From a virus, in the IMG/VR virus record IMGVR_UViG_3300009514_000642, positions 1 to 47,866 of that record: a stretch of DNA of 47,866 nucleotides; one strand, 5' to 3'. Shown here in pieces: positions 6,210 through 44,270 of the stretch (positions are counted from its first letter, which is position 1; each line of letters starts with the position of its first letter). A program made the translations under genes and the position numbers. The notes under the pieces are model-generated. The model had not been told where the DNA came from. It ran no database searches and was given only the letters and a program-made list of their open reading frames with translations.

Positions 6210-6238
6210 GGCGGCTACTAAAACGGTAGCCGCCTTTT
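6210..6238 (+). terminator. Rho-independent terminator
   Basis: GGCGGCTAC (6210-6218) and GTAGCCGCC (6226-6234) form a perfect 9-bp stem with a 7-base loop, followed by TTTT. It closes the transcript of the 61-residue protein and lies 13 bases before the next ATG. Confidence 0.9.
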
Positions 6239-11108: not shown

Positions 11109-13274
11109 ATGGTGGTAAGCTCAGGTGTACGTCCTTATAACTATGAGGCTCAAAATCCATTACGTCTGAGTATTGGTGATATAACGGGTTTTTCAGGTAT
11201 TATTTTTTCTGAGGCTGCATTTAGCATGTTGCATGACCTTAGATTGTTCAATAATCTTAATACAACCACTCCATTTAAAGCTTATATTAATAAAGACGCT
11301 AATAGAATCATTATAATTGAGCCTGACGCCTCGGGAGATGCTTATATTGACAATAGTGGATGTGTTCACTATATTGACTATATCAAAGATTTACGTGAAT
11401 CTATTAGTGGAGTTTTTGCCGCTCATGCTGCCGACTCCGCGCATGCCGCTTTTGCTTTTGAACAACACCATCTGAGAAAACAACATTCCTTATTTCCTGC
11501 CAAGGTCTCTAATATTAGTAACTTTATTCATCATTTACCATCAGTTGGTGTTTTACCTAGTGGCGAAGAATTAGGCACTTCAGGCATTTTTGATATAGAC
11601 ATAGCAGAGATTCAATGGCAACCCACAGTACGCCCAAGCGCACTAAAGAAAACTACCTTTGGACCGGGTGCTACTAATATTCCATTAGCTCCTTTATTTC
11701 CTTTTGTTATTACTGTAGACGGTACTTCTCCTCTTGCTAATACAGATGATGTAAATTTAGCTGACGATCTTGCCATTGATGTTTTTAGTAGCGGTGCCTT
11801 TTTATTGACCGGAGATGTAATTATTGATGGATCTGAAGTTATCCTAATGACAAGTTCGGGAGCAACACCGTCAGCAACTAGTACGTATCAAACTAACGTT
11901 GATGGAGCCCTTTATCCAACACATGCCGGACAAAATGTTACCACTCTTACTACTCCATCAGGTCGTCAAGTTATTTTTGATACTTTTACTTTATCAACAA
12001 CTTTAGAAGAGGGTGTTTATCTTTTAGGTATTGATACTACACCCAGTACAAGTGGTAATATTAGCACATTTCCTGCTAATTATGCTAGCATTAGCGGCTT
12101 TACCAATGATTCTATCTGGGACTCTGAGGGCAAGCTCCTACAACCATTACCAGAAGGAGTATATGTTGCTGATAAACTAATTTTCAAACTTAGTCCCGGC
12201 GGTGAGGGATCCGCTGGCAGAAGTCGCATTACTGGTCGTAAAGCTTATTCTCATATTATTGATAATACTAGAAATATCAACAATAAGGCATTTGCTGGCC
12301 TTGTTTATCAAGACGTTGATGGTACTCCTGCCGCCATAGTTGATACCTATAATCAATTTGTTGATACCTTGCTAGGATTTGGCGTGCCTCGTGAATGTGG
12401 CGGCACACATAATCCTGTTCTAGATGTTAAATCAACAGTTACTCATGCAGAACTAGATCAAACATTAAGTAACGTCGCTTTTATTGACGTTCAAGAAAGC
12501 TTTCGACGCGATCGAAACTTTTTTGAATCTGCTGCGGCTGGAAATATTACTAATTTTGGCCAAGGTGTAGCAAGAGTTTTTCATAATATTTGGACGCCTG
12601 GTGCTTCTAAATTTATGATTACTTCAAATAGAAATGGTGCAGCACGTAATACGTTACGTAGTTATCGATATGAAGTACAAAAATTTATTGAACCTTCTGG
12701 ACCAGTTATTGTTGTTTGTACAACAGACTCATTTTTCCCTGCATCTGATAATATTTTTCATGATATTGATGGATTATGGAATTTTGCTAGAACCAAAAAT
12801 GGTAGGTTAGTCAATGTGGGTGGTAATATATATGTGAATTATTCTGGAAATCGTTTTTTTAAATTAGGTGTCTCATATCGTGACGCGCCCGCATCTTTGA
12901 CCCCTACGCCATGGCGATACCAACCCGGTTTTGGCTATTGGAGAATTAAGCCAATTTCACAGGAAACCAATATTCCAAGCCGTATAACAAATGCTGGTGG
13001 GGCTTCTATTATATTACCTGAATATCTTCCATTTTCAAATAGCGATGTTGTTAGTTCAAACTATCTTGGATCACCATTGGGACAAGGATGGGGGCCAGTA
13101 GTTTATGATTTTGCAAATGATTTAAATTATTTTTATATTGAACTGAAACAAACTTTTATTGGTCATAGGTACTGGTTTTGTACAATGACTAATGATTTTC
13201 AGGTTATTAAAGCAGTACCAGTTGATAGTGACGATCTTTTAATAACAGCAAATATTGGTATCTTAACGCTTTAG
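11109..13274 (+). CDS. Large beta-rich virion protein, 721 aa
   Basis: The product is 721 residues and starts two bases after the fibre stop. It is rich in Ser, Gly, Thr, Asn and aromatic residues. An early stretch around residues 100-125 is Ala/His-rich (AAHAADSAHAAFAFEQHH), a possible helical linker. The rest alternates strands and loops, with PSG and TSG turns that are shared in style with the neighbouring structural proteins. No enzymatic motif was recognised. Position between the fibre and baseplate candidates suggests another tail-tip, fibre or baseplate protein. Confidence 0.6.
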   Translation: MVVSSGVRPYNYEAQNPLRLSIGDITGFSGIIFSEAAFSMLHDLRLFNNLNTTTPFKAYINKDANRIIIIEPDASGDAYIDNSGCVHYIDYIKDLRESISGVFAAHAADSAHAAFAFEQHHLRKQHSLFPAKVSNISNFIHHLPSVGVLPSGEELGTSGIFDIDIAEIQWQPTVRPSALKKTTFGPGATNIPLAPLFPFVITVDGTSPLANTDDVNLADDLAIDVFSSGAFLLTGDVIIDGSEVILMTSSGATPSATSTYQTNVDGALYPTHAGQNVTTLTTPSGRQVIFDTFTLSTTLEEGVYLLGIDTTPSTSGNISTFPANYASISGFTNDSIWDSEGKLLQPLPEGVYVADKLIFKLSPGGEGSAGRSRITGRKAYSHIIDNTRNINNKAFAGLVYQDVDGTPAAIVDTYNQFVDTLLGFGVPRECGGTHNPVLDVKSTVTHAELDQTLSNVAFIDVQESFRRDRNFFESAAAGNITNFGQGVARVFHNIWTPGASKFMITSNRNGAARNTLRSYRYEVQKFIEPSGPVIVVCTTDSFFPASDNIFHDIDGLWNFARTKNGRLVNVGGNIYVNYSGNRFFKLGVSYRDAPASLTPTPWRYQPGFGYWRIKPISQETNIPSRITNAGGASIILPEYLPFSNSDVVSSNYLGSPLGQGWGPVVYDFANDLNYFYIELKQTFIGHRYWFCTMTNDFQVIKAVPVDSDDLLITANIGILTL

Positions 13275-28600: not shown

Positions 28601-28972
28601 TTAGTATGGGAGAAGCACTATTTAGGTACTACCTTATCTGGTAGCATGGCGGACCTAGAACGAGCCATGAGTGGCGCTCGTCATACATGCAAAGAGGTTG
28701 GTACAGGTCAGTTACAGCCTGGTTGGGACGTACATTTATGTGTTGTGGTCGAGAAATTTCGAGAGGTAACTGTTAAACGTGGTAAAACTCAAGGTAGACA
28801 AATGGCTTTTGCTGTTGTGAGTGACTCGACATATGCTCTAGATGGGTCATGTATTTTTCCTGATGCGTATGATAAAGTTAAAGAGTCGGGTATTATGGAG
28901 GGTGACGTTGTGTCTATATTAGGCAAAATGTCAGATCGTGGACTAATCATCAATCAAATGAGGCAACTATGA
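25604..28972 (+). CDS. dnaE: DNA polymerase III alpha subunit, DnaE-type
   Basis: The 1122-residue replicative polymerase is close in length to bacterial DnaE. The N-terminal PHP domain keeps HLHCHT at residues 7-12, D18, H43 and E68, so its metal site looks largely intact and it may proofread or hydrolyse pyrophosphate. The palm has D410 and D412 in MPDIDTD and D587 in KVDILGL, matching the three catalytic aspartates. GPARGSAGGSLVSYLLG is the usual family segment before the palm. The C-terminal OB-fold region lies near 1030-1115 (MAFAVVSD). No separate epsilon exonuclease or sliding clamp is in the window, so host or distant phage genes must supply them. It overlaps the next gene by four bases. 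Confidence 0.93.
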   Translation: MTREIVHLHCHTNHSFLDGQSSVKNLVARAKELGMDALAMTNHGNIFGWVEFAKECKKQDIKSLYGCEFYLTDDHANKSRQAHHLVVLAENEIGLNNIIRLTTRANENFYYKPRIDLKDLELHKEGIIVTTACMHGPISYWLFDKMTWPVAGEESTLKEAANIPEAYRYANELKRILGPEQFFLEVQDGGIPEQKLINQRVRKIAKELGLQVVATQDSHYVNKDDALAHSFLKAMAFGKSAVEAGSHGFSTEEYYLKNRDIVLHATDIKPAEVDITREIAARCNVELDLHQMRLPKYPTDDLRSSIEILKEKLRQGWKRRKIYDDYGEYSQRINHELVDIEQAGLADYFLIVADITDYCRDQNIMVGPARGSAGGSLVSYLLGITSLDPIVHGLIWERFYNVGRIGSMPDIDTDIEKGRRDEVIDYIRSRFGEKRVAQIVTLSSLAARQVLRDVFKVAGIDENVKNLIVGLVPAKNEDHASISLQEAIDAVPKLKEYADNKDPFDIVRGGRVIRTTSWHELFDIALRLEGCYKTSGIHAAAVIIADKDFDEAGVPLVKAKSTEDHKHRMICGWDMDAVDAFGLLKVDILGLATLDILKTTLKLIKNRHGKTYDLSNIPLDNSKVFNLLADGHNQGIFQLESSLGKAWSKKCKPTSVEEIAELISIIRPSCLDTGMSETYAKIKQGKETPSYIHSILKPILEPTKGILLYQEQVMAICQVVAGMDLKHADSVRKVIGKKKPDELREKQQEFMDGAIKTVPQDIAEEIWGWIEKQAGYGFNKSHAVGYAMLAYQTAWVKANYYLEFLCANLMHAKDKANQQRTSQDVIASFVNDGKLQDIHIVPPKLNNSQVDFTIINKNVISFGFSHIRGVGASALKSVKACQMAKNFTEFLNLASKHKLKKTVIEAFICAGVLDEFGLARRRMKAQYNLWSALTAKEQTMLEDHSGTLVDQITAIADEATVVDRKANKVKMPNISRRQKLRTLVQTFQNESHRDTVAQILVWEKHYLGTTLSGSMADLERAMSGARHTCKEVGTGQLQPGWDVHLCVVVEKFREVTVKRGKTQGRQMAFAVVSDSTYALDGSCIFPDAYDKVKESGIMEGDVVSILGKMSDRGLIINQMRQL

Positions 28973-29713: not shown

Positions 29714-30112
29714 ATGGATAGTGGACGAGTATTTTTAACAGGTCGTTTGACCAGAGACCCTCTCTTTTTTGGTGAAGGCGACAAGCAGCGTGCGCTCTTT
29801 ACTATAGCGTTTAATCGTGGTCGTGATGAGGCGCGTAAGACAACTTTTGTCCAGTGTATTGCTTGGGGCAAGCGTGCTGATATTATGCGTGATTTTAATA
29901 AAGGCTCTGGCATTCATATCGAAGGTGATCTTGAGTTAGATAGTTATACTAATAAGGAAGATGTTAAGGTTGAAAGGCTTCAAGTGAACGTTAGTGTTAT
30001 TACGGCAACTCAAAATTTACGACGTCGTAGCCAACAAGAAGAAGTTGTTGTAGGTATCACCACAGATGGCAATAGTAATACCGACGTTGATGAAGGTGAA
30101 ATTCCTTTCTAA
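29714..30112 (+). CDS. ssb: Single-stranded DNA-binding protein
   Basis: The 132-residue SSB protects and organises single strands at the replication fork. The OB-fold runs over residues 1-105, with the usual start VFLTGRLTRDP, the FTIAFNR strand, TTFVQCIAWGKRAD, KGSGIHIEGDL and a final strand before ITATQNL. A short acidic, polar linker leads to the C-terminal tip DEGEIPF, the peptide by which bacterial SSB recruits partners. The tip is close to the bacterial consensus ending D-I-P-F, so it may recruit host or phage replication proteins. AGGA lies 5 bases or so upstream of ATG. Sixteen bases separate it from the sigma-like gene. Confidence 0.9.
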   Translation: MDSGRVFLTGRLTRDPLFFGEGDKQRALFTIAFNRGRDEARKTTFVQCIAWGKRADIMRDFNKGSGIHIEGDLELDSYTNKEDVKVERLQVNVSVITATQNLRRRSQQEEVVVGITTDGNSNTDVDEGEIPF

Positions 30113-30128
30113 ATATTAAGTAATAGCA

Positions 30129-30761
30129 ATGTTTTGTAGAATGGAAGAGTCACCTGATCAAGTTTATGCTGCAAATAGAGGATTGATTAGATCGTTAATT
30201 AATTCTATTGTAGTGAATAATCGCTCTGTAGTATCTGTGGAAGATCTACAACAAGCAGGTGCCCTGGCGTTGATCGTAGCGCTTCGGACATATGATCCTT
30301 CGGTGGGTTCATTTCAGTCTTATATTCGTTGCTGCATTCGAAATGCTCTCCTAGAGGAAGCTAATTCATTTAATAGTATATTTACTGTAGATGAAAAGTT
30401 ACGCCGACAAACGAACGCTATTTTAAAAATGCGTGAGCAAGGATTGAGCGATGACACTATTATGACACGGCTCGGGATTAAAACCCGAGCCACTTTTTTA
30501 TCTTTGTTACAATTAGGTAATTATGCTATTGAGCTTCATAAGGTTGATATAGAGGATAATTTTTCACCTGATAAAGATGATATTCTACGTTTATTAAATG
30601 AAATCGGTTTAAATGATGTAGAGTTGGAGTTTGTTAATTTTATTATTAATAATCATTCAATGGACGATATTGCAATAAAAATGAATTTGAGCCGCTCTTA
30701 TCTTTTCACTGTTAAAGCAACTATTCGTGATAAGATTTTAGAATGGGGTAGAAACGAGTAA
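30129..30761 (+). CDS. Sigma-70-like transcription factor with in-gene terminator
   Basis: The 210-residue protein has a sigma region 2-like segment (about residues 12-79, with DLQQAGALALIVALRTYDP and FQSYIRCCIRNAL), a middle helix-turn-helix (about 96-126) and a region 4-like helix-turn-helix (about 160-205, MDDIAIKMNLSRSYL). It resembles compact phage sigma factors that redirect host RNA polymerase to middle or late promoters. The first ATG lacks a good ribosome site; another at 30141 is possible. The codons for residues 114-123 form a perfect terminator. It lies directly before the glycan operon. Recognition of the GGACGA or TTTAGTGTAT motifs is a hypothesis only. Confidence 0.75.
   Translation: MFCRMEESPDQVYAANRGLIRSLINSIVVNNRSVVSVEDLQQAGALALIVALRTYDPSVGSFQSYIRCCIRNALLEEANSFNSIFTVDEKLRRQTNAILKMREQGLSDDTIMTRLGIKTRATFLSLLQLGNYAIELHKVDIEDNFSPDKDDILRLLNEIGLNDVELEFVNFIINNHSMDDIAIKMNLSRSYLFTVKATIRDKILEWGRNE
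30469..30499 (+). terminator. Intrinsic terminator inside the sigma-factor gene
   Basis: GGCTCGGG (30469-30476) and CCCGAGCC (30484-30491) pair perfectly around the loop ATTAAAA, followed by AC and TTTTTT (30494-30499). It lies fully within the sigma reading frame. Translating ribosomes would mask it, so it could act as an attenuator linking transcription of downstream genes to translation of the sigma gene. Confidence 0.8.
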
Positions 30762-30767
30762 TTTAAT

Positions 30768-33700
30768 ATGGGGACCGGCATGAGTCAAGAAAAGAATAAT
30801 AAAAAGCGTATTTTGTTTATTGGTGAAGCATCATGTCTTAATACTGGTTTTTCAACCTATTATCGTGAATTACTTCCAAGACTTGCCGCTATGGGTAAGT
30901 ATGAGATTGCTGAATTTGCATCTTATATTACAGATGATGATCCACGAGCCCAGGCATTTATTCAAGGACGATGGAAATTTTATGGTAATGCTCCACAAAC
31001 TTCAGAAGAAGAAGCCCTATTCAATCAGCCAGATCCTGCACAACCGGGACAAAATACTAATCAGTTTGGTAGGTGGAAGTTTGAACATGTACTCGCAGAT
31101 TTTCAGCCTGATATAGTTTGCTTACCATCGGGCGAGCCTATTATGACATCTAATGGATATAAGAATATTGAAGATGTTCAGGTAGGTGATTTAGTAATGA
31201 CTCACCAAGGTAGGTTTCGTTCCGTTTTAGAAACCATGAATCGAAAGCACGATGGTGATTTGTATTCTATATATTTTAATGGTGGATCAGAGCCACTGAG
31301 GGTGACAAGTAATCACCCTGTGTTGGTATATCGAAAGCGCAAGCAGACTAATCAAAAGAAAAGTATTGGAGCAATTTATGCTGGTATTGATGCTCAATTT
31401 GTGAGAGCTGATCAAATTCAAGAGGGTGATTTGGTTGTAGTGCCCCGACTGCAAGATACTCAGGCTTCTTATCTTACAATAGATATCACATCTTACCTAG
31501 ATGACTCTGTGAATTATGAAATTATAGGTAATCAAATTCATACCAAACCTCACGGTCATGTTGTTCCACGCTATATTGAGCTTACCCCAGATTTGGCAAG
31601 ATTGGTTGGGTATTTTATTGCGGATGGGTCAAGCTCGATAAGAGAAGTTTGTACCACGTTTAGTAGTAATGAAATAAGATTTGTAGATGATGTAAAAATA
31701 ATTTTAGAATCTATATTTAAAATAAACACCACAGTTTTTGATTGTAGCCCTAATAAACAATCTTTTAATAACAGATTATGTAGTACGATAATTGCAAACT
31801 TTTTTACAAATTGGATTGGTCAGCGAGAGAATAAAAATATTCCTTATGAGTTTTGGCAATCTCCTTTAGATGTTCGTCAACAATTAATGCGTGGCTTGGT
31901 TCGTGGTGATGGAGATTATGCCAAAAATTCAGTAAGACTCACTACTGTTGTTCGAAATCTAGCCTATTCTTATAGGATGTTAGCAATCTCTTTAGGAATT
32001 CCAGTAAGTATTCAATTTAATGAAACACAAGGTAAAAATGGTGCCTACGTTATTTGTGGATATGGTGAATCCGCTCGATCTCTTCATCTTCTAGTTGATA
32101 AATTTGAAGGACAAGAGCCACCGGGTTTAGTTGCTACGGCAGTTCGTCGTGGTTGTTCTACACATATGGTGAACAATCAAATGTTGGCCACTGTCAAGAA
32201 GATTGAAGTCAACAAATATTGTGGCAAGGTTTATAACTTTGAAGTAGAAGAAGATCATTCGTACGTAAGTGTAGTGTCTACACACAATTGCGACATAAGG
32301 GATTGGTGGATGATTGCCTTTGAGGAACGCAGCCCATTCCGCAAATATTTTAAGTGGGTCATTATGCCTACTGTAGATTCAATTCCTCAAAAAGAGGAAT
32401 GGATTCAAACTTATATAGGTGCTAATTATGTTATGGCCTATTCTGATTTTGGTATTGATTCTTTGCGTCGTTCTTCACCTAAATTAGAAGTAAGAATGGA
32501 TCCACCGGGCAAGCGAGGTTTCGTTGGCATTGACAAAATGCCAGGTAAGTTACACCCCGTACCATTACGTCCTGGTGTAGATTTAAAAACTTTTCATCCA
32601 CGTAATGATGAAGAGAAAAAAGCACTTAAACAAAAATGGGGTATTAAACCAGACATTCCTATTATTTTACTAGTGCAACGTAACCAAGCCAGAAAACGTA
32701 TTTCTGAAGTGATTACGGCATTTTCAATGATGAAATCGCTTTATCCTGATAATGAAATGGTACAAAAGTCCATTTTGCTTATGCATACTGCATGGCCTGA
32801 TAATGTCATGTCTGTTGATTTTCCACGTGCAGTGGCACGTATTCAAACTGGTTGGCACGGTGCTCCACACCCTCGTAAGGGTATTATACGAGAAGTAAAT
32901 TCTACTTTTATATGTCATAATACACAATGTGGCGATGTCTTTATTGCACCATCTATTAATTTGCGCCAATATCATGTCATTATATGCCCCAAGTGTGGAC
33001 AACAAAGTGCTCGTACACCAACCACGGGTTTTGGTATTACCAGAGAGCAACTATCAGAAGTTTTTGGTATGGCAGACATTATGGTACAAATGAGTATTGC
33101 AGAAGGTTGTGGTATGCCCGTGCAAGAAGCCAAGGCGTGTGGCGTTCCTGTATTAGTGACAGACTATTCTGCCCTTAGTGAAAAAGGCAAGATACCTAAT
33201 TATGAGCATGTTGATCAAAAGAATTATTCTGTACATCAGGGTGGCGAGGTTATAAAATTAGCCTATCTTTATGAAGAACCAGAAACCACATGTTGGCGCG
33301 CTCATACATCTATAGAAGATTGTTGTCACAAGATGGCTGCGCTTATTAGTGATCGCGAACGTCTAGCTAAGATGAGTAAAGCAGCCCGAGAATGTACTGA
33401 AGAGAATTATAATTGGGACAAAAACTTTAAAGAGTGGGAGTTTATTTTAGACCATATTACACCATTAGACAGAAATACTACATGGGACAAACCAATAGAA
33501 TTAATTGAAATTGATAATACAATGCCTGCCCCAGAATGTACCGATGAAGATTTTGTTATTTGGTGTTATACTAAATTATTAGGCTATAAAGGAGAGCATG
33601 ATATTGATGAAGATGGACGTAAAAATTGGTTATCTAAATTACAACTTGAGGCCAGTCGCGGTATTCCAATTCAGCAAACAAGACAAGAAATTGCCAATTA

Positions 33701-33809
33701 TTTCCGCCAACAAGCCGAGGCACAAAATGTAGTAGAGCGTCTGCGCACTAATACAAAATTAACTAATACATCAGAAGAAGTTGATATTCTTGAGGCGGTG
33801 ATATTATAA
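30768..33809 (+). CDS. GT4-type glycosyltransferase interrupted by an intein
   Basis: The 1013-residue precursor loses a 390-residue intein (residues 118-507) to give a 623-residue enzyme. The exteins form a GT-B glycosyltransferase: N-terminal Rossmann start RILFIGEASCLNTGF, CDIRDWW at the splice junction, then the nucleotide-sugar motif AEGCGMPVQEAKACG at about 773-787 of the precursor. A Cys4 zinc-ribbon insertion lies in the C-terminal lobe (CHNTQC and CPKC, about 718-747). The last 90 residues contain a YTKLLGY...DGRKNWLSKL pattern reminiscent of DUF4214. An ATG at 30780, five bases after GGGGA, may be the real start. It heads the glycan operon; sugar donor and acceptor are unknown. Confidence 0.85.
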   Translation: MGTGMSQEKNNKKRILFIGEASCLNTGFSTYYRELLPRLAAMGKYEIAEFASYITDDDPRAQAFIQGRWKFYGNAPQTSEEEALFNQPDPAQPGQNTNQFGRWKFEHVLADFQPDIVCLPSGEPIMTSNGYKNIEDVQVGDLVMTHQGRFRSVLETMNRKHDGDLYSIYFNGGSEPLRVTSNHPVLVYRKRKQTNQKKSIGAIYAGIDAQFVRADQIQEGDLVVVPRLQDTQASYLTIDITSYLDDSVNYEIIGNQIHTKPHGHVVPRYIELTPDLARLVGYFIADGSSSIREVCTTFSSNEIRFVDDVKIILESIFKINTTVFDCSPNKQSFNNRLCSTIIANFFTNWIGQRENKNIPYEFWQSPLDVRQQLMRGLVRGDGDYAKNSVRLTTVVRNLAYSYRMLAISLGIPVSIQFNETQGKNGAYVICGYGESARSLHLLVDKFEGQEPPGLVATAVRRGCSTHMVNNQMLATVKKIEVNKYCGKVYNFEVEEDHSYVSVVSTHNCDIRDWWMIAFEERSPFRKYFKWVIMPTVDSIPQKEEWIQTYIGANYVMAYSDFGIDSLRRSSPKLEVRMDPPGKRGFVGIDKMPGKLHPVPLRPGVDLKTFHPRNDEEKKALKQKWGIKPDIPIILLVQRNQARKRISEVITAFSMMKSLYPDNEMVQKSILLMHTAWPDNVMSVDFPRAVARIQTGWHGAPHPRKGIIREVNSTFICHNTQCGDVFIAPSINLRQYHVIICPKCGQQSARTPTTGFGITREQLSEVFGMADIMVQMSIAEGCGMPVQEAKACGVPVLVTDYSALSEKGKIPNYEHVDQKNYSVHQGGEVIKLAYLYEEPETTCWRAHTSIEDCCHKMAALISDRERLAKMSKAARECTEENYNWDKNFKEWEFILDHITPLDRNTTWDKPIELIEIDNTMPAPECTDEDFVIWCYTKLLGYKGEHDIDEDGRKNWLSKLQLEASRGIPIQQTRQEIANYFRQQAEAQNVVERLRTNTKLTNTSEEVDILEAVIL
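31119..32288 (+). mobile_element. Intein with LAGLIDADG endonuclease in the glycosyltransferase
   Basis: The intein is 390 residues. Its first residue is Cys (CLPSGEPIMTS, block A). Block B is VTSNHPVLV, and the splicing C-terminus is VEEDHSYVSV then THN before an extein Cys. Two LAGLIDADG-type helices, LARLVGYFIADG and LMRGLVRGDGD, show an intact homing endonuclease between the splicing blocks. The frame is continuous, so splicing and homing activity are both probably preserved. The insertion point lies between PDIV and CDIRDWW, a conserved-looking motif of the host protein. Confidence 0.93.
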
Positions 33810-35092
33810 TGAAAATTCTTTACATAGCGCCAGTTCGTGATTTTAGTGGATATGCTAATGCTGCTCGTGGCTATATTCGGGCATTATATCAGGCAGGTGC
33901 CGACATAGCCGTGCGTGCAATTCGTTATGATAAAGCAGATCCGGGTAGTATGTATGAACCAACTGACATAGAAAATAAATTACTGAAGCGTGATTTGAAG
34001 AACATTGATATTGTGATTCAGCATACTACGCCAAACGAGATGCGCCCCATGGATGATAAAGTTAATATCGCCATTGTTGCCTGGGAAACTACTAGAATTC
34101 CACCTTATTGGGTTAATAAACTTAATAAGTTTGATGCCGTGATGACCTTTTGTGATGCCAGCGTTGAGGCGTTTCAGAATTGTGGCGTATATGTTCCCAT
34201 TCATAAAATTCCACATACGTTCGAAATCGCAGATTATGATCTAAATGGTATAGAGCCTATTACAATTCCTAAACTTCCAGATTATTTTAAAGATCGATTT
34301 GTCTTTTTGAACATTAGTCAATTTGCCACCAAAAAAGGTATTGATGTATTATTGCGTGCTTATTATGGAGCATTTCATGGTCAAGAAGACGATGTTCTTT
34401 TGATACTTAAAACCTATATAGGCATGGCCAATAGACAACAAGAACGAGAAAAAATACAACAATATATTGAATCAGTCAAAGCCGGCATGCGTTTGCCAAA
34501 TAATAGCTATCCCCCCGTGATGTTGATTACTAATACTTTAACAGATGAATATATTCAACGACTACATGCTACCTCTGATTGTTATGTATGTAGCTCCAGA
34601 GCGGAAGGTTGGTGTATTCCCGCTTTTGAAGCTTTGGCATATGGTAAAAAATTGGTAACAACTACTTGGGGTGGAATGGGAGAATTTGCTTGTGACGTTG
34701 ACTATTTTGAGGTTCCAGAAGATCAAACAAATATGATTCCTGGTAAATATCGTGTTGGTGAACGAGCCAAATCGAATGTTTTTCCTGTTCAATACTCCAT
34801 CGAGCCACTAGTTGGACAAAATCATGGCGATCCAGAACTTTATACAGCATTAGATAATATTGCAGAGCCTTCTGTGACGTCGATGATGCAGGCAATGAAA
34901 AATGCCAGGGAACAATCCTTGGTTGAAAAGGCGGACTTAATGGAATTTGATTATAGTAAAGTTGGACCAGAGATGTTAAAGATTATCCAATCATACAAGA
35001 TACAAAGAGAAGAAATTAAAAGGGGATTAGCCGAAGACAAGCAATTAGTTGAAGAAGTATTTGGTGAACAAGAGGAGGTTACTGATGTCTGA
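33809..35092 (+). CDS. GT4 family glycosyltransferase
   Basis: The 427-residue GT-B enzyme begins KILYIAPVRDFSGYANAAR, with the glycine loop of the N-terminal lobe. FVFLNISQFATKKGIDVLLRAY marks the start of the C-terminal lobe near residue 164. SSRAEGWCIPAFEALAYGK at about 262-280 is the GT4 donor-binding E-x7-E motif (E266, E274). It is likely to transfer a nucleotide-activated sugar in the glycan pathway; acceptor unknown. The start shares the A of TAATG with the preceding glycosyltransferase stop, and the end overlaps the next by 8 bases. Its C-terminal tail is charged and helical (KQLVEEVFGEQEEV). Confidence 0.85.
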   Translation: MKILYIAPVRDFSGYANAARGYIRALYQAGADIAVRAIRYDKADPGSMYEPTDIENKLLKRDLKNIDIVIQHTTPNEMRPMDDKVNIAIVAWETTRIPPYWVNKLNKFDAVMTFCDASVEAFQNCGVYVPIHKIPHTFEIADYDLNGIEPITIPKLPDYFKDRFVFLNISQFATKKGIDVLLRAYYGAFHGQEDDVLLILKTYIGMANRQQEREKIQQYIESVKAGMRLPNNSYPPVMLITNTLTDEYIQRLHATSDCYVCSSRAEGWCIPAFEALAYGKKLVTTTWGGMGEFACDVDYFEVPEDQTNMIPGKYRVGERAKSNVFPVQYSIEPLVGQNHGDPELYTALDNIAEPSVTSMMQAMKNAREQSLVEKADLMEFDYSKVGPEMLKIIQSYKIQREEIKRGLAEDKQLVEEVFGEQEEVTDV

Positions 35093-36149
35093 TCAACCAC
35101 AAAATCCTTTTAATAATGATCTTCCTAATCAAGTATCAGCTATTATAGACGCAATTGATCATGAACCTCGTATTTGTCAATGTATCCAAGCTTGTAACGA
35201 AGAAGCCTTAATTGAACCCTGCATACTTCAGTTATATGATAAAGTAGACAAGATTCTAGTCATTGAAGGTGCGGTCCAAAATAAGGTAGATGTAGGACAG
35301 GCAACTCCAGACGGTCACTCCCTTGATCGAACAGTAGAAATTATTCAAGATATCAAAGCAAACAAAGATCCTGATAAGAAAATTACCTTCATACGTATTG
35401 ATCGTCCCTGGAGAGATTTAGAGGAACTCAAAAATACCTTCTTTCAATATATGCAAGAGGGTGACTGGATGCTCATTACAGATGCCGATGAATTTATTAT
35501 GCCTGAAGTAATTGATCAATTGCGTGAAGCGATTAGTCTTGAACCTACCGCAAGCGAAATTGTTCCTGAAGCATTCTATCACTTTTGGCGTGACGCATAT
35601 CATATTCGTAAACCAAGTAGTGATTGGGGTCAACAACATCAGCGCTTTATTCGTTTTCAGCCTGGACTTCATTATGTGCATCATCCCGTGGCGCGTGATC
35701 AAAACAATGTTTGTACATATTTTGACCCACGTTATTTGGGGCGTCGATTTGTTTTACCAGGATTTGCTATTTATCATTATTCATACTGTAGAGATAGAGA
35801 AGAAGATGTTGAGGCTAAAAAAGCATTCTATGATAAGGAATTAGGTCAAGAGAAACATGGTGATGTGGGTGCTTATGCACGTGGTGGACAAACAGACGAG
35901 TATCTTAATAAAACAGAAGATCTAAGCACTGTTTTAAAATTTGATCTTGAGCATCCGCCCATTATGAAGGGTCATCCGATAGCCACATTACGTAATCAAT
36001 TTTTAGATCAAATCGATATTGCAGAACAGATTCAACATTTTACAACAGCAGAACCCTATAATTTAAAGCGCGTTCCATTAATTTGGATTTGGGCTAAAGA
36101 ACGCGCCAATGAAGGATATGATAAACTCTTTAACACAATAGGTATATAA
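35085..36149 (+). CDS. Family 2-like GT-A glycosyltransferase
   Basis: The 354-residue protein starts at 35085 behind a strong AGGAGGT, in preference to an ATG 12 codons upstream. CIQACNEEALIEP is the first strand and turn of GT-A folds. DADEF at about residues 142-146 is the metal-binding DxD. HFWRDAYHIRKPS and FPGFAIYHYSY later resemble GT92/GT2-like capsule enzymes. Probably uses a divalent metal and a nucleotide sugar. The first 35 residues (Asn/Gln-rich, polar) precede the fold. The gene overlaps the preceding glycosyltransferase and ends one base before the next ATG. Confidence 0.75.
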   Translation: MSDQPQNPFNNDLPNQVSAIIDAIDHEPRICQCIQACNEEALIEPCILQLYDKVDKILVIEGAVQNKVDVGQATPDGHSLDRTVEIIQDIKANKDPDKKITFIRIDRPWRDLEELKNTFFQYMQEGDWMLITDADEFIMPEVIDQLREAISLEPTASEIVPEAFYHFWRDAYHIRKPSSDWGQQHQRFIRFQPGLHYVHHPVARDQNNVCTYFDPRYLGRRFVLPGFAIYHYSYCRDREEDVEAKKAFYDKELGQEKHGDVGAYARGGQTDEYLNKTEDLSTVLKFDLEHPPIMKGHPIATLRNQFLDQIDIAEQIQHFTTAEPYNLKRVPLIWIWAKERANEGYDKLFNTIGI

Positions 36150-36150
36150 G

Positions 36151-36396
36151 ATGGACGAAGTAAAACTTCCAAATAAACCTAGACGTCATCGTTGGGTTAC
36201 TGAGGCTATTAATGCAGGTGACGAAAAACTGTCAGTTTGGCCATCTCCCGATGAAATTACTAATGAAAAAAAGAGGCAACATTTTCTGGAAACGATTGCC
36301 AAGGTGGGTAATGATCCACGGGTTGTTAATGTTGAAAAACATAGTCATGATATTTACCATGTAGTCTTTTTGTTTTATATAGACCCCAATGCCTGA
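36151..36396 (+). CDS. Unknown 81-aa protein in the glycan operon
   Basis: The 81-residue protein has a basic N-terminus (KPRRHRW) and an acidic middle, then a C-terminal strand-like segment (HDIYHVVFLFYI). No catalytic motif, cysteine pair or membrane helix. It follows the previous stop by one base and overlaps the next gene by 8 bases, so it is embedded between two glycosyltransferases and likely expressed with them. Function unknown. Confidence 0.55.
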   Translation: MDEVKLPNKPRRHRWVTEAINAGDEKLSVWPSPDEITNEKKRQHFLETIAKVGNDPRVVNVEKHSHDIYHVVFLFYIDPNA

Positions 36397-37213
36397 TATT
36401 AGCTTCATCGTTAGTAATTACAATAGTGCTGATTATCTAGATGGGTTATTGGTTAATCTATCCCATCAAAGTCATCAGGAAATTGAGATTATTGTAGTAG
36501 ATAGTAAGTCTACTGACAATAGTTTAGAGATTGTTTATAAACATCAAGAACGAGATAGTCGTATCAAACTGATTGCACAGCCCCAACGCACGCCATACGG
36601 GGTCTCTTGGTTAATTGGCTGGCAAGCTGCTAAAGGAAAAGTGGTAGGAAATTCTAATACAGATGATCGATCGTATCCATGGCGTGCTACCCAAATTATA
36701 TCTACTCAACAACACCATCAATCTAGAGATCAAATGTTAAGATGGAAAAAGTATAGATTTTATTATGGAGGATATGAAACAAGAAGAGATGGCGTTACGG
36801 TTGCTAAGGGACTACCACCACCATATTCTGTAGATGATATGAGACGTTTCTTTCGATGCGGAGTTCATGTGCATTGGGATAATGACCTGCGTGATATCGT
36901 GAATTGGGATGTAATGATGAAGGCTGGCTATGAATATAAATCAGCCTTTGATTATTGGTTGGTGCTTTACTTTATGACTCTAGGTGTAGAGGGGATGCCG
37001 ATTCAAAATTGTTTTAGTATTTACAATCAGAGATCAGATTCTATCGAACAGATGGATAAAGAACGTAATACATTTGAATCTATGCGCGCAATTCAAACCC
37101 TACATCCTGAAGCGCCATCTTTAGTAGACCTTGAAACCAAGACTAAATTTGAGTCGCCAGAGTTTTATAAAAGATATCAACAATTTTTAGTTGATATAGA
37201 AACCCATGTCTAA
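36389..37213 (+). CDS. GT2 family glycosyltransferase
   Basis: The 274-residue protein has a classic family 2 N-terminus: PDISFIVSNYNSADYLDGL, then IEIIVVDSKSTDNSLEIV, and GNSNTDDRSYPWR, where the Asp pair at about residues 93-94 fits the metal/nucleotide site. PYSVDDMRRFFRCGVH lies in the variable acceptor half. It is cytoplasmic; no membrane helix seen. Together with the other transferases it probably builds a multi-sugar glycan. Coupled to both neighbours by 8-base overlaps. Confidence 0.82.
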   Translation: MPDISFIVSNYNSADYLDGLLVNLSHQSHQEIEIIVVDSKSTDNSLEIVYKHQERDSRIKLIAQPQRTPYGVSWLIGWQAAKGKVVGNSNTDDRSYPWRATQIISTQQHHQSRDQMLRWKKYRFYYGGYETRRDGVTVAKGLPPPYSVDDMRRFFRCGVHVHWDNDLRDIVNWDVMMKAGYEYKSAFDYWLVLYFMTLGVEGMPIQNCFSIYNQRSDSIEQMDKERNTFESMRAIQTLHPEAPSLVDLETKTKFESPEFYKRYQQFLVDIETHV

Positions 37214-37916
37214 AAAACTTATTACTTTTTCTTTATGGGGTAATGACCCTAAATATTGTGAAGGTGCGCTTAAAAATATTGAGCTTGCGCGGATATTTTA
37301 TCCCGGTTGGACCTGTCGTTTCTATGTAGCTGCGCCAGATGGTATACAGGCAACGTCGCAATATTATATTGACAAGTTATTTGAATATTGTAGTCTCGGT
37401 TATGAAAATAATGTTGAAGTGGTTATGGTTAATGCACCAGGTGATTGGCGTGGTATGTTTTGGCGTTTCTATCCAGCTAGCGAGGATGATGTAGATGTAT
37501 TTATCTCGCGCGATTGTGATTCTCGTCTAAGTGAACGCGAAGCGCTAGCTGTAGAAGAATGGATGAAGGGTCCAAAACTTATTCATGTTATGCGCGATCA
37601 TCCATACCATACTGCGCCCATTATGGGAGGCATGTGGGGTGCTAAAAATGATGCGCTACCAAATCTACAACAAGAGATTGAAAAATATAAATTTCGTGGT
37701 GATTTTTGGCAAGTCGATCAAGATTTCCTACGAGAAATTGTTTGGCCTGCACATTATCACAAGATATTAGCGCATGATGATTGGAGACGTTTTCCTCTTA
37801 CTGAAATTCAATCCTTTCCAACACCGCGCCAAGGTCTTAGTTTTGTAGGAGAAATCTTAGATGCTAATGATTTACCAATTTACCCTGAACACAATCAAAT
37901 GTTAGAAGCTAGATAA
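37206..37916 (+). CDS. Glycosyltransferase-like protein with DxD motif
   Basis: The 236-residue protein opens KKLITFSLWGNDPKYCEGAL and contains VDVFISRDCDSRLSEREA at about residues 97-114. The RDCDSR is a DxD-type metal site as in GT8/GT32-like sugar transferases. HVMRDHPYHTAPIMGGMWG and WQVDQDFLREIVWP are further motifs usual for such proteins, which often serve capsule or LPS-type synthesis. The GT-A identity is fairly clear; the family is not. It overlaps the previous gene by 8 bases, and TAATG joins it to the GMP reductase-like gene. Confidence 0.7.
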   Translation: MSKKLITFSLWGNDPKYCEGALKNIELARIFYPGWTCRFYVAAPDGIQATSQYYIDKLFEYCSLGYENNVEVVMVNAPGDWRGMFWRFYPASEDDVDVFISRDCDSRLSEREALAVEEWMKGPKLIHVMRDHPYHTAPIMGGMWGAKNDALPNLQQEIEKYKFRGDFWQVDQDFLREIVWPAHYHKILAHDDWRRFPLTEIQSFPTPRQGLSFVGEILDANDLPIYPEHNQMLEAR

Positions 37917-38953
37917 TGTTTATAAGTCCTAAATCATATTATAGTTTTGATGATGTATTGTTAAAGCCACAATATTCAGAAATTGTATCTCGTGCTGACG
38001 TAGACCTTTCAACTCACTTAGGTAAAATGAACCTAGGTCTTCCTATCGTTTCAGCAAATATGGATTCAGTGACCGAGTTTGATATGGCGTTTGCTATGTC
38101 GCGTCATGGTAGGGGTATCGGTATTATGCATCGATTCGCAACAATTGATCAACAAGTGTCTTGGGTGCGACACTGTGGTAGTAATTGTGTCCCAGCTATT
38201 ATCTCAATTGGTTTTGATACCCGCGAGTGGACGCCATTATTACGTCAGGTTTGTGAAGAGATTGATGCTGTATGTATTGATGTTGCGCATGGTGATCATA
38301 AGCGTATGATTAACACCATTACAGCTATTCGAAAAACATATCCTGATCTAGATATTATTGCCGGCAATGTAGCTACGGGTCAAGCAGCATTAAGGCTTGT
38401 AAAGGCTGGGGCTAATGTCATTAAGACGGGTGTAGGCCCTGGGTCTGTTTGCTCTACGCGAATGGTAACGGGTCATGGCATTCCGCAACTAAGCGCCATT
38501 ATGGATGTATATGAAGTATTATCACAAATAAATATACCGACTTATATTATTGCCGACGGTGGTATTCGTTATCCTGGCGATATTGTGAAAGCATTGGCGG
38601 CGGGGGCGGACGCCGTAATGATTGGTTCGCTTTTAGCCGGTACTGACGAAGCAGCAGGGGAAAGGATTGTAGAACATGGAGTGGCTTTTAAAACTTATCG
38701 GGGCATGGCGTCAAGAGAAGCCCAAACCGAAAAACGAAATGGAAGAACCCCGCGTGTTGAAGGAGTCACTGCTAAAGTACCGTATCGTGGTCCTGTGCGT
38801 GATACTCTCAATAATCTTGAAGCTGGTGTGCGTAGTGGCTTTAGTTACAGCGGTGCTAATAATATTGCTGAATTGCGGGCCAATGCTGAATTTATAGTTG
38901 TTACTAGTAACACTCTTAAAGAAAATCAACCCCATCATCCATATAGGTTGTAA
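37916..38953 (+). CDS. GMP reductase/IMP dehydrogenase family enzyme lacking CBS domains
   Basis: The 345-residue (beta/alpha)8 enzyme has the family start SFDDVLLKPQYSEI, SANMDSVTE near 47-55, the catalytic loop GVGPGSVCSTR with Cys179, and ADGGIRYPGDI. The CBS regulatory pair of bacterial IMP dehydrogenase is missing. No RYFQ-type Arg-Tyr pair is visible in the flap. PYRGPVRDTL and RSGFSYSGA resemble GMP reductase, so guaC-like is a better match than guaB. NADP(H)-linked IMP/GMP conversion is expected; it may steer guanine nucleotides toward GDP-sugars or DNA precursors. Its place between glycosyltransferases and a methyltransferase suggests the former, but that is inference. Confidence 0.8.
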   Translation: MFISPKSYYSFDDVLLKPQYSEIVSRADVDLSTHLGKMNLGLPIVSANMDSVTEFDMAFAMSRHGRGIGIMHRFATIDQQVSWVRHCGSNCVPAIISIGFDTREWTPLLRQVCEEIDAVCIDVAHGDHKRMINTITAIRKTYPDLDIIAGNVATGQAALRLVKAGANVIKTGVGPGSVCSTRMVTGHGIPQLSAIMDVYEVLSQINIPTYIIADGGIRYPGDIVKALAAGADAVMIGSLLAGTDEAAGERIVEHGVAFKTYRGMASREAQTEKRNGRTPRVEGVTAKVPYRGPVRDTLNNLEAGVRSGFSYSGANNIAELRANAEFIVVTSNTLKENQPHHPYRL

Positions 38954-39983: not shown

Positions 39984-40264
39984 CGAGTTTTACTTTCAAT
40001 AAGCGAGAACCAACCAGCTTCATCAGTTGGGCATATCTTCCAACAAGTCGCTTCTTTGTCACTTGCCTTATAACCGGGACTACAGTCTACTCGTCGCGCT
40101 CTGGGCGTGAAACATTTTCTTTTGCCGCCCGTGGAGTGTACGGAACACATGTCTTGGTAAACAAAAAATATCATATTCGTACACCGTCCGATATCCGCGT
40201 TGAACGTAATGGCGAGACAATTCCGTTGGATCGCTTGGCAAAAATTGTTGGTGTACAATTATGA
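39980..40264 (+). CDS. Unknown 94-aa protein left of the homing endonuclease
   Basis: The 94-residue, beta-rich basic protein (REPTSFISWAYLP, GTTVYSSRSGRETF, HVLVNKKYHIRTP) has no recognised motif. One stretch (40081-40140) is 53% GC by hand count, higher than its surroundings. The stop TGA overlaps the ATG of the GIY-YIG gene (ATGA). Before endonuclease insertion it would have overlapped the downstream glycosyltransferase in the same way. Function unknown. Confidence 0.55.
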   Translation: MTSFTFNKREPTSFISWAYLPTSRFFVTCLITGTTVYSSRSGRETFSFAARGVYGTHVLVNKKYHIRTPSDIRVERNGETIPLDRLAKIVGVQL

Positions 40265-40863
40265 AGTTTGGTGTTTATAGAATTAGAAATCAAGTTAACG
40301 GAAAGTGTTATATAGGCAGTACGTCATCTTGTGGTTTTGATAAACGATTTCGTAAGCATCGCAATGATCTAAAAGCTCAACGTCATCATTCTCGTCATCT
40401 ACAGAATGCCTGGAATAAGTATAATTTTAATACCTTTGTCTTTGAAATTTTACTTTATTGTGATCCAGAGAATTGCCTGCTGTATGAGCAAGTCGCCCTA
40501 GATTGTTTTAAACCAGAATATAATGTTTCACCCACCGCTGGTAGTAGTTTAGGTATCAAACGTTCTGCAAAATCAATAGCTAAGCGACGCGCTAGTATGC
40601 CAGATCAATCAGGTGAGAATAACCCATTCTATGGTAAAAAGCATTCTCAGGAATGGATAGAACAAAATTTAATAGGAGAAAATAATCCTGGCGCGGGATT
40701 ATTTGGCGAATTGAACCCGAATTCAAAACTTACGAATGATCAAAGGCGTGAGATATATCGTCTTGGGAAAATGGGATTATCTCAACGGAAACGTGCCGAG
40801 GCGTTTGGAGTATCTAAATGTCCAATTGCAAGAATCGATAAAGATGATAGGTGGGCGTTATGA
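40261..40863 (+). mobile_element. Free-standing GIY-YIG homing endonuclease gene (coding sequence)
   Basis: The 200-residue protein has GVYRIRN at residues 4-10 and YIGS at 17-20 (the GIY and YIG motifs), the central R/H segment (RFRKHRND), and catalytic Glu near 76 in LYEQVALDCFKPEYN. Downstream lie GENNPFYGKKHS (NUMOD3-like) and a C-terminal helix-turn-helix (about 157-190) for DNA recognition. This matches SegA-type mobile endonucleases of phages. The gene sits between exact TTATGA repeats (40259-40264 and 40858-40863) that preserve ATGA coupling on both sides. Removal of 40261-40859 would restore a normal overlap, so it looks like a recent, seamless insertion. Confidence 0.9.
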
Positions 40864-41774
40864 GGGTGTTGATTACCGGACGAGCTATCCCCACACAATC
40901 TGATCGTTGTACGGGCCAGCAACTTGCTGAAGGTTTTCGACAAGCTGGACACGAGTGTATTTTCTACGGTAATTTTTATGGACATCCTACTCAATTTACG
41001 GGCGCTACAGAAGCACAAGAAGCAGACTTTGACCTTATTGTTGTTACTGAAATGAATGATGGCATGGCGGGGTATGAGGCTCTACTACACCACTTTAGAT
41101 TAAAAAATGTGCCGCGTTTATATTGGGATTTCGATGTCTCGTATCATCCTGATATATCATTTGCGCGAGCAGGCAGAATCGCCTATGATGGTTATCTTGT
41201 GGGCAACAAATATTTTCTAGGTGAAAAAGACTTTGGGCGTTTCAATAAACCAGTGCTTCATCTACCCTATGCATGTTCTCCTCAAATTCATCGTAAGATG
41301 CCTGACATTAAGAAAAAATATCTTTTAGGGTTTGTGGGGTTAATGACCGCAGAGCGTGAAGTTTTAATGCCGTTATTGAAGGGTCCAGATATTTTTATTG
41401 GTGAAGGTATTTTTGGAGATGACCTTATTACTAAGACAAATGAATTCTATATTATGTTTCATCACAATCAAGAAGCATGTAAGGGATTGGTACCAGGACG
41501 TCCATGGGAAACCGTTGGTTGTGGCAGTACTCTTTTAATGGATAAAACAAGTTACGAAGATTTTATAGAATTTTTTCCCAATGACCTTGATAACGTGTTA
41601 GTATACAGTAGTGGTGATGACATTAGGCGTACTATCCAGGGTTGGAGATATGGTGGATTGTCTTCGTTAGAAGACGCAGGTAGATCATTACAAAAATATG
41701 CGTATAATCACCATACCTACAAACATAGAGCTGAAAAGATAATTGAATGGACACAACAAGAAGGGATCATATAA
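40860..41774 (+). CDS. CgeB-like glycosyltransferase
   Basis: The 304-residue GT-B-like protein starts with ATG at 40860 behind AGGTGG; a GTG three codons earlier is less likely. MRVLITGRAIPTQSDRCTGQQLAEGF is its N-terminal Rossmann loop region, seen here in parts as ITGRAIP and GQQLAEGF. LLGFVGLMTAEREVLM opens the second lobe, and PWETVGCGSTLLMD matches the FE-x-x-x-CG-x-x-L motif of the CgeB/spore-coat glycosyltransferase group. It is shorter than classic GT4 enzymes. The last gene of the window has the same C-lobe motif. Role: transfer of a sugar within the operon's glycan. Confidence 0.75.
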   Translation: MRVLITGRAIPTQSDRCTGQQLAEGFRQAGHECIFYGNFYGHPTQFTGATEAQEADFDLIVVTEMNDGMAGYEALLHHFRLKNVPRLYWDFDVSYHPDISFARAGRIAYDGYLVGNKYFLGEKDFGRFNKPVLHLPYACSPQIHRKMPDIKKKYLLGFVGLMTAEREVLMPLLKGPDIFIGEGIFGDDLITKTNEFYIMFHHNQEACKGLVPGRPWETVGCGSTLLMDKTSYEDFIEFFPNDLDNVLVYSSGDDIRRTIQGWRYGGLSSLEDAGRSLQKYAYNHHTYKHRAEKIIEWTQQEGII

Positions 41775-42037
41775 TGACAATTGACAAATACGAAGTAGAG
41801 TTGCGTGAGATGGAAGAACAAGATCCTCCACGTGCCCCATTATATGGTGTTTTATTTCTTGATTATCGTAATCGTTCACGTCGTATTTTATTACATGATC
41901 GTCGTGATGTATTAAATTTAATGAGAGCATTAGAAGATTGGAAATTAAGTAATGGCGCAGTTATGTGTTATTGGGAAGACGAATCTGTATTTGATCATTG
42001 GAAAGAAGGCGAAAAGGCATTAATACAATATGATTAA
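41774..42037 (+). CDS. Unknown 87-aa charged protein
   Basis: The 87-residue protein starts at the TAATG overlap; an in-frame ATG nine codons earlier lies inside the previous gene. It is rich in Asp, Glu and Arg (RNRSRRILLHDRRDV, EDWKLSNG, DHWKEGEK), with tryptophans near the C-terminus. No motif was recognised. It overlaps the intein-bearing aminotransferase gene by eight bases. Confidence 0.55.
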   Translation: MTIDKYEVELREMEEQDPPRAPLYGVLFLDYRNRSRRILLHDRRDVLNLMRALEDWKLSNGAVMCYWEDESVFDHWKEGEKALIQYD

Positions 42038-44270
42038 TTTATTTAAAGTACGCATGTCTGATGATGCAGGTTGGGCTGTTGACAAGGTTCTTCGCAGTGG
42101 CTATATTGGAGAAGGACCAAAGGTTAAAGAGTTTGAAAAACAACTAGAAGTAATATTTGGGTGCGAGGCAAGCAAGTATGTATTAGCCACCAATAGTGCG
42201 ACATCCGCCGAACATCTTGCTTGGCATACATTAAAACAACAGGGTCATCTTGAAGATGGTGATGAAGTATTGGCCACGCCATTAACTTGCGTGTATGGCA
42301 AACAGTCTGTTTTATTAGCAGACGGGTCTTCTAAAACGATTGCAGAATTGGTGAACACAAAATATAATAGCGAGGTTGTTGCTTATAATCCTCAAACTCA
42401 ACAATTTGAAAATAAAAAAGTCATCGGTTGGTATAAATCACCTATTCAAAATCGTTACTGGATAAAAGTATCTTTTGAAAATGCCGGCTTATCTAATATT
42501 GGCGAAAAGCGCGGTACTTGGTTAACGAATGATCATAAGGTTTTAACTACTGATGGTTATAAGCGGGCAGACGAATTACAATGTAGTGATCAGTTGATTA
42601 CTAATTATCTTCAACCAAACCCATATCAACGAGAATTAATCCTTGGCACAATGTTGGGTGATGCTAGTATACAATTAGGTAAACGTGGGCATGGCAGATT
42701 ATGTATTGGTCATACCGATAAAAATATAGATTATGTTAACTTGAAGAAATCGGCTTTGGGGCAACTATCTAAAAAAACACAAGCCCGTCCCGCATATGGT
42801 AATACCAAAGCATCATCAAGATTTCAATCGTGTAGTTCGCCAGTTTTCACTCAATTACATCGACAATGGTATACTTCATCTACTAAGATAGTTTCGCGAG
42901 AATTATGTCAACAATATTTATCACCACTAGCGTTAGCAGTATGGTATATGGATGATGGTTATCTTAATAGACAATATCGTGGTGCTGTTATAATTTGTTC
43001 AGAATCATTCACGAAAGAAGAGAATGAGTTTTTAGTTGATCTATTAAAACAAAAATTTGATATCAAAGCATCGTTACGAAAAACTCATGGTGGTTCTGGT
43101 TGGGGAATTTATATTGGCAATGGTAATGATGGTCATGATTCTGCTATCAAGTTTTTAACCATAGTTGCCCCTTATATTGTACCATCTATGCGGTATAAGC
43201 TACTAGATGATATTGAAAAAAGATACCCTTTTCAAGCTAAATTGTATGATTTAGGGCATGCCATTCCTTATATTGATCATGTGGTTTTAATAGAAGGTCA
43301 GCCCAAGTGCCCGGAATCTCATCTAAAAAGTGTATATTGTATTGATGTGCAAGATCATCATAATTTTGTTACTTCCTCGATTATAATTCATAATTGTACC
43401 GCAACCAATTTTCCCATCGTCGCTAATGGCTTGCGCATCAAATGGGTAGATATAGATCCAGAGACACTCAATATGGATCTAGATGATCTGGCGTGCAAAA
43501 TAACCCCAACCACTAAAGCAGTTATGGCAATGCATTGGGGTGGCTATCCCATGGATATGCAGCGCCTCCATCAGATTTGTAATAACGCCTTGGCGCGATT
43601 TGGATTTCATCCTTATATTATTCAGGATTGTGCTCATGCATTAGGAAGTACGTTTCAAGGTCATTCGTTAATTCCCTGGGCTGATTTTTCAACATTTAGT
43701 TTTCAGGCTATTAAGCATCTTACTTGTGGAGACGGTGGGGCGCTTGTTACATTAAATGATAAAATGTACGATCTAAGCAGACTCCTGCGTTGGTATGGCA
43801 TTGATCGCGAGGGTGATCGTAACGATTTCAGATGTGAAGCTAATATTGCTCATTGGGGCTACAAGTTTCATATGAATGATATTGCGGCGACTATTGGACT
43901 CGCCAATCTTTCTCTTCTAGATGATACAATTCTGAAACATCAGAGTAATGGGCAGTATTATGATCATGCTCTACAAAATATTCCTGGGGTAACATTACTA
44001 ACTCGACATGATGATAGAGAGTCTTCGTATTGGCTTTATACTTTACGTGTTGAAGACCGTGGTGGATTTATGAAGATGATGAAGGAAAAAGGAATTGAAG
44101 TTAGTAGAGTACATGAACGGAATGATAAACATACTTGTATGAAAGAGTTTAGAGTTGCGCTCCCGACACTCGACGTTATAGTCAATGATATGATTTGTAT
44201 TCCTGTTGGTTGGTGGGTTAACGACGAAGACAGTGAATATATTGTTGATTGCATTAAAGGGGGTTGGTAA
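42030..44270 (+). CDS. DegT/DnrJ/EryC1-type sugar aminotransferase interrupted by an intein
   Basis: The 746-residue precursor yields a 377-residue PLP enzyme after removal of a 369-residue intein. The exteins show the DegT fold: SGYIGEGPKVKEFE near 23-36, ATNSATSAEHLAWH, the join at TPLT|CTATNFPIV, QDCAHALGS (PLP-binding Asp), and FSFQAIKHLTCGDGG with the Schiff-base Lys562 (193 in the mature enzyme). Such enzymes add an amino group to keto-sugar nucleotides, so the glycan probably contains an amino sugar. The C-terminal VPVGWWV-like segment (IPVGWWVND) is usual. TAATG links it to the methyltransferase that follows. Confidence 0.9.
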   Translation: MINLFKVRMSDDAGWAVDKVLRSGYIGEGPKVKEFEKQLEVIFGCEASKYVLATNSATSAEHLAWHTLKQQGHLEDGDEVLATPLTCVYGKQSVLLADGSSKTIAELVNTKYNSEVVAYNPQTQQFENKKVIGWYKSPIQNRYWIKVSFENAGLSNIGEKRGTWLTNDHKVLTTDGYKRADELQCSDQLITNYLQPNPYQRELILGTMLGDASIQLGKRGHGRLCIGHTDKNIDYVNLKKSALGQLSKKTQARPAYGNTKASSRFQSCSSPVFTQLHRQWYTSSTKIVSRELCQQYLSPLALAVWYMDDGYLNRQYRGAVIICSESFTKEENEFLVDLLKQKFDIKASLRKTHGGSGWGIYIGNGNDGHDSAIKFLTIVAPYIVPSMRYKLLDDIEKRYPFQAKLYDLGHAIPYIDHVVLIEGQPKCPESHLKSVYCIDVQDHHNFVTSSIIIHNCTATNFPIVANGLRIKWVDIDPETLNMDLDDLACKITPTTKAVMAMHWGGYPMDMQRLHQICNNALARFGFHPYIIQDCAHALGSTFQGHSLIPWADFSTFSFQAIKHLTCGDGGALVTLNDKMYDLSRLLRWYGIDREGDRNDFRCEANIAHWGYKFHMNDIAATIGLANLSLLDDTILKHQSNGQYYDHALQNIPGVTLLTRHDDRESSYWLYTLRVEDRGGFMKMMKEKGIEVSRVHERNDKHTCMKEFRVALPTLDVIVNDMICIPVGWWVNDEDSEYIVDCIKGGW
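42288..43394 (+). mobile_element. Second intein, in the sugar aminotransferase
   Basis: The intein is 369 residues. It starts with Cys (CVYGKQSVLLADGS, block A), contains TWLTNDHKVLT (block B with T-x-x-H), and ends CIDVQDHHNFVTS then HN before an extein Cys. Two endonuclease helices, LILGTMLGDAS and LALAVWYMDDGYL, mark a LAGLIDADG enzyme of a different subgroup from the intein in the glycosyltransferase. The two inteins show no obvious close similarity, so they were probably acquired independently. The open frame suggests both splicing and homing are intact. Confidence 0.93.

Follow-up and report, generated by a model that had tools for sequence, protein, structure and literature searches.

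Background

Ribosomes that trail RNA polymerase block intrinsic terminator hairpins, as at the E. coli pyrL terminator, and translation-sensitive terminator sites have also been predicted within genes, including narY and rsxC (PMC5021804). RNA 3' ends internal to ORFs are numerous in E. coli, with sRNAs known to arise from processing, and about a fifth of the scored 5'UTR and ORF-internal 3' ends fit intrinsic termination (PMC7815308).

The window analyzed here (W) is the whole stretch of an IMG/VR virus record, 47,866 bases long. We examined a terminator-like hairpin (hairpin A) that lies within a gene assigned to the sigma factors, proteins that redirect the host RNA polymerase. Like the pyrL, narY, and rsxC sites (PMC5021804), hairpin A is a terminator-like hairpin in RNA predicted to be translated, which ribosomes could mask; pyrL lies in a short leader peptide, whereas hairpin A sits in the middle of a phage sigma gene. 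With the E. coli ORF-internal ends and sRNAs, such as the internal RNA of aceK, it shares a structured (here putative) end in coding sequence, some of those ends being scored as intrinsic terminators; they were, however, identified by RNA sequencing (PMC7815308), whereas the evidence here is evolutionary and the site varies by phage lineage.

Our best reading, to which we give a probability of about 0.45, is that hairpin A may weakly attenuate transcription from within a gene of a long operon, in a manner sensitive to translation. Terminator-like hairpins in coding sequence are easily dismissed as accidents, and the selection at silent sites described below argues otherwise. If hairpin A does terminate transcription, ribosome-polymerase coupling would bear on both the phage sigma factor and the large module that follows it, which would offer a compact and testable system for the use of polarity as a control by phages.

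A hairpin within the sigma factor gene

The ORF containing hairpin A (Table 1) matched the Pfam domain Sigma70_r2 (1.2e-9) and, over residues 6–203, the PHROG of sigma factors phrog_351. Further profile matches were to FliA chains among structures and to FliA-type sigma factors, with scores below the subfamily cut-offs of NCBIfam. On these matches the ORF is assigned to the sigma-70 family as a FliA-like member, with region 2 and a sigma-like C-terminal part. Stem A overlaps codons 114–121, between regions 2 and 4; an overlapping gene was rejected there, as no ORF of at least 60 aa was present over the stem in another frame.

Hairpin A (plus strand, 30469–30491) reads GGCTCGGG-ATTAAAA-CCCGAGCC and is followed by AC and T6. 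Its stable, GC-rich stem of 8 bp, 7 of them G-C, has an energy of about -15 to -17 kcal/mol, and the region 30440–30510 folded at -17.2 kcal/mol (z -3.16 relative to dinucleotide-shuffled sequence). A preliminary description of this DNA had reported the 8-bp stem, the 7-nt loop, and T6 inside a healthy sigma-like frame and had proposed folding this region; stem, loop, T-run, and frame proved exactly as described and the fold stable, with the one nuance that the T-run is separated from the stem by 2 nt (AC).

Terminator-like sites are rarer at 24–44 kb than in shuffled sequence (5 against 12.4 by chance), and hairpin A is the top site of that scan. In the whole window, it is outranked only by an intergenic hairpin at 6210–6234, a strong terminator of the form GGCGGCTACT-AAAAC-GGTAGCCGCC TTTT and the best of the window. 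The inverted repeat of hairpin A has no second copy within the window.

Table 1. Coordinates of hairpin A (parts read from the sequence) and of neighboring features in the window
Feature	Position	Strand	Remarks
SSB gene, upstream of sigma	29714..30112	+	16 nt from sigma
FliA-like sigma factor gene	30129..30761	+	Intact frame, 210 aa; start possibly 30141
Site aligning with hairpin B (15 bp + T5)	30342..30392	+	Hairpin not present in the window
Hairpin A, left arm GGCTCGGG	30469..30476	+	Codons cGG CTC GGG
Hairpin A, loop ATTAAAA	30477..30483	+	7 nt; contains AAA Lys codon
Hairpin A, right arm CCCGAGCC	30484..30491	+	Codons aCC CGA GCC
Hairpin A, spacer AC	30492..30493	+	2 nt
Hairpin A, T6 run	30494..30499	+	U-rich in every stem-bearing relative
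Glycosyltransferase with intein, first gene after sigma	30768..33809	+	Glycos_transf_1, Hint, and LAGLIDADG matches
Rest of downstream module	33809..38953	+	GT families 1 and 2, small ORFs, IMPDH/GMP-reductase-like gene

Presence of the stem in related phages

A DnaE search identified 10 IMG/VR contigs, and a sigma profile added L020 (the same as L031); the relatives, all from IMG/VR, represent 7 divergent lineages. Searches of named phages with the window DNA or the sigma protein gave no match, a scan of GTDB genomes found nothing, and DNA-pattern and GT1 scans yielded no additional sigma relatives. The 10 contigs found with DnaE share the gene order dnaE, 2 small ORFs, ssb, sigma, and GT1, and the order dnaE-ssb-sigma-GT is common to all relatives, L020 having 1 inserted gene. 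The latter, a homing-endonuclease-repeat gene (HNH_repeat, PF18780, 1e-32; L020:6649–7839), lies between sigma and GT1. The sigma proteins of the relatives are 50–62% identical to that of the window, with about 60% in the lineages having the full stem.

All 8 pairs of stem A are present in W, L002, L004, and L010, and 7 pairs in L003/L006 and near-copies; the stem is absent from the aligned sigma genes of L007, L008, and L020. Across the 5 sequences having it, 97.5% of stem cells are paired. In the stem-bearing set the outer pair is either G-C or A-U, with a change in both arms; at pair 4, W has U-A and L002, L003, L004, and L010 have U-G, so that pairing is kept. The compensating changes that the preliminary description had proposed to look for among homologous sigma genes were thus found in part, as this single G-C/A-U exchange, with 1 pair lost in some relatives and the whole stem missing from others. 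Covariation at 1 pair was matched by 49 of 500 shuffles and is too weak as a stand-alone proof of the stem because the lineages are too few. Those bearing the stem are few (4 with the full 8 bp) and share ancestry, and the 3 trees do not separate gain of the stem from its loss. The tracts aligned with stem A in L007 (12906–12947) and L008 (12905–12946) are near-identical to each other and contain the rare codons TTA and ATA; the hairpin is absent there.

Pair 4 also bears on the idea that the inverted repeat is an intragenic DNA binding site, or operator. The arms in W are perfectly palindromic, and the compensating outer pair preserves DNA symmetry as well as RNA pairing, but the U-G pair of the 4 relatives keeps the RNA pairing and breaks the DNA symmetry. 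An operator would also leave the U-run unexplained, and the hairpin of L007/L008 described below is unrelated in sequence. Given the U-G pairs and the single copy of the repeat in the window, this candidate was rejected as very improbable.

Codon choice and synonymous constraint

The codons of MTRLGIKTRATFLS were redrawn according to codon usage in the other genes of the phage. All 8 stem pairs arose in 0.01% of the synonymous draws for W (1e-4), and the energy of stem A was matched in 0 of 2000 draws; the same test gave 0.1% (1e-3) for L002, 0.17% (1.7e-3) for L004, and 0.045% (4.5e-4) for L010. The stem codons of W are rare within their families (CGG 2%, CTC 3%, and GGG 7%), in agreement with the earlier remark on GC-rich codons in an AT-rich gene. 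With stem odds of about 1 in 10,000 and rare codons in use, hairpin A is very unlikely to be a codon accident.

Synonymous constraint was scored in nine-codon windows (n = 1835) across 16 syntenic genes of W, L002, L004, and L010, a set whose pairwise synonymous codon identity is only 0.36–0.50. The nine-codon window at stem A ranked second of 1835 (z 5.9), an excess of synonymous constraint surpassed only at the 3' end of dnaE (28940–28966), which overlaps the beginning of the following ORF (28969) and is a built-in positive control, as expected of real constraint. The stem A window ranked fourth when L003 was swapped for L002 and was unremarkable in sets that included stemless lineages. Codons CTC, GGG, ACC, and CGR of the stem are fixed, as is AAA in the loop, and the Ile, Thr, and Leu codons close by differ among lineages, so a recently exchanged or copied tract is an unlikely source of the stem. 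From this pattern of silent sites, hairpin A is probably a selected nucleotide-level element.

The U-run and the terminator score

Hairpin A shares with intrinsic (Rho-independent) terminators an 8-bp GC-rich stem, a 7-nt loop, and a U-run on the coding strand. It differs from them in lying inside an ORF, in the offset between stem and U-run (against a criterion of 0–2 nt, W and L002 have 2 nt and L004 and L010 have 3 nt), and in failing a strict d'Aubenton-Carafa-type D score, in which the tail is taken directly after the stem. The strict D was -20 in W and below that in the relatives (to -48), the AC or ACR spacer being the cause, and turned positive only if the spacer was skipped; the score was passed by a second hairpin in the sigma genes of L007 and L008 (hairpin B, +28 / +23) and by the intergenic control at 6210 (+18). 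U-richness after stem A exceeded codon expectation in L002/L003 (P 0.009–0.014), with a marginal excess in W and L004 (0.07), and is partly a product of the encoded amino acids, TFLS. Because the strict score fails and the excess of U is partial, hairpin A resembles a terminator that is weak or acts conditionally, with other RNA roles possible.

Such a role, as a pause hairpin, an RNase processing site, a site bound by an RNA-binding protein of phage or host, or the 3' end of an sRNA from within the ORF, would also account for selection on the RNA, and we consider it somewhat unlikely. Relatives vary more in the spacing of the U-run than in stem and loop, and the AAA codon of the loop, of which a plain terminator has no need, is retained in L002 and L004 despite making up 12% and 17% of their Lys codons, respectively. 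Processed ORF-internal 3' ends and sRNAs are, moreover, known in E. coli (PMC7815308). This explanation is weakened by L007/L008, where a hairpin that again has a U-run occurs at another, unrelated site, and by the Rfam covariance models, which gave 0 matches in the window at gathering scores and none at E<=1 in 30300–30800.

In the sigma gene of W, a T TTT TTA heptamer stands in the frame appropriate for a programmed -1 frameshift. The relatives have A TTT TTA or T TTT CTT, the hairpin stands upstream of the heptamer and not downstream, and the -1 frame soon stops; the slippery site not being kept, frameshifting was rejected as having next to no probability.

A second hairpin in the sigma genes of 2 relatives

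Hairpin B of L007 and L008 consists of GCCCTRCTGGAGGAA-GCYAA-TTCCTTCAGYGGGGT followed by T4 and lies within sigma (12788–12823), about 140 nt upstream of the place of hairpin A. At -26.7 kcal/mol in L007 and -25.1 kcal/mol in L008, it outranks every other terminator-like site in the respective 19-kb locus, and its U-run (T4–T5) abuts the stem. The 2 copies differ by 1 compensating G-C to A-U double change, and their stability was reached in 0 (L007) and 1 (L008) of 5000 synonymous draws. Both loop and stem are unrelated in sequence to hairpin A. As L007 and L008 are sisters in all 3 trees, hairpin B counts as 1 extra case and not 2. The sigma gene of L020 contains neither hairpin A nor a B-type hairpin.

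We scanned about 11 genes per lineage for over-stability, taking from each gene just its most stable windows for comparison with synonymous draws. The most over-stable window tested falls in sigma in W, L004, L010, L007, and L008. In L002 second place went to another sigma window, and in L031 no top window was in sigma. An over-stable hairpin was also observed in the ORF 2 genes upstream of sigma in L002 (11863–11907, z -6.25) and at the matching place in L004 (z -3.97), a type that is not among the strongest structures of the window.

On these comparisons, a terminator-like hairpin in the sigma gene appears to be under selection, at sites differing among lineages. The stem could still have no function, arising by chance from codon choice or surviving as a short shared ancestral tract: independent lineages are few, TFLS favors U-rich codons, and 3 lineages are without the stem. 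We judge this quite improbable in view of the codon-usage odds, the rank in synonymous constraint, and the second hairpin in the sigma gene of L007/L008.

Proposed mechanism and putative operon

Wherever they are present, hairpins A and B lie inside the open sigma frame, in a region predicted to be translated. dnaE, ssb, sigma, and the glycosyltransferases would form a single long operon. With a ribosome close behind the polymerase, stem A could not form and transcription would proceed; if the sigma mRNA were poorly translated, some polymerases would stop past the U-run, leaving less full-length sigma mRNA and less transcript of all distal genes. We infer termination at hairpin A, its dependence on translation, and its downstream effect by analogy with ribosome masking and ORF-internal ends in E. 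coli, from which a lowering of sigma and distal transcripts under poor translation would follow. The broader proposal, that this phage family keeps a translation-sensitive terminator in its sigma gene at lineage-specific places, so that how closely ribosomes follow the polymerase sets the output of sigma and the module, is in our view unlikely.

A narrower case of the attenuator was put forward in the preliminary description, in which the element may be a gate that makes expression of the glycan genes behind it depend on translation of the phage sigma factor. The sigma-GT1-GT2 order is kept in all hairpin-bearing relatives, and a homing endonuclease insert as the gene following sigma occurs only in L020, the lineage without a sigma hairpin, which is suggestive but a single case. 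L020 nevertheless retains downstream glycosyltransferases in the same direction, and the reach of the element would extend beyond the glycan genes to sigma and to every distal gene. The preliminary description saw no separate promoter for the glycan operon. Matches to sigma-70-like promoters in this stretch were near chance (88 against 76.4 expected, sd 8.4), the consensus being sigma-70-like and perhaps not that of the phage sigma, and consensus scans neither bear out nor contradict that remark. The comparisons give no specific support to a dedicated glycan gate, which we regard as possible but decidedly unlikely.

From comparison with the relatives, the real start of the first glycosyltransferase after sigma is probably at 30780. 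Its intein, with a LAGLIDADG domain, spans about residues 118–507 and is absent at that place in the relatives; GT1 of L010 has a distant intein-like insert elsewhere in the same protein, at about residue 780. An IMP dehydrogenase/GMP reductase-like gene (37916–38953) closes the glycan module. The area at 40261–44270 is rich in mobile elements, with an ORF for a GIY-YIG endonuclease of the group-I-intron type (40261–40863) and an aminotransferase-like ORF with an internal LAGLIDADG domain (42030–44270).
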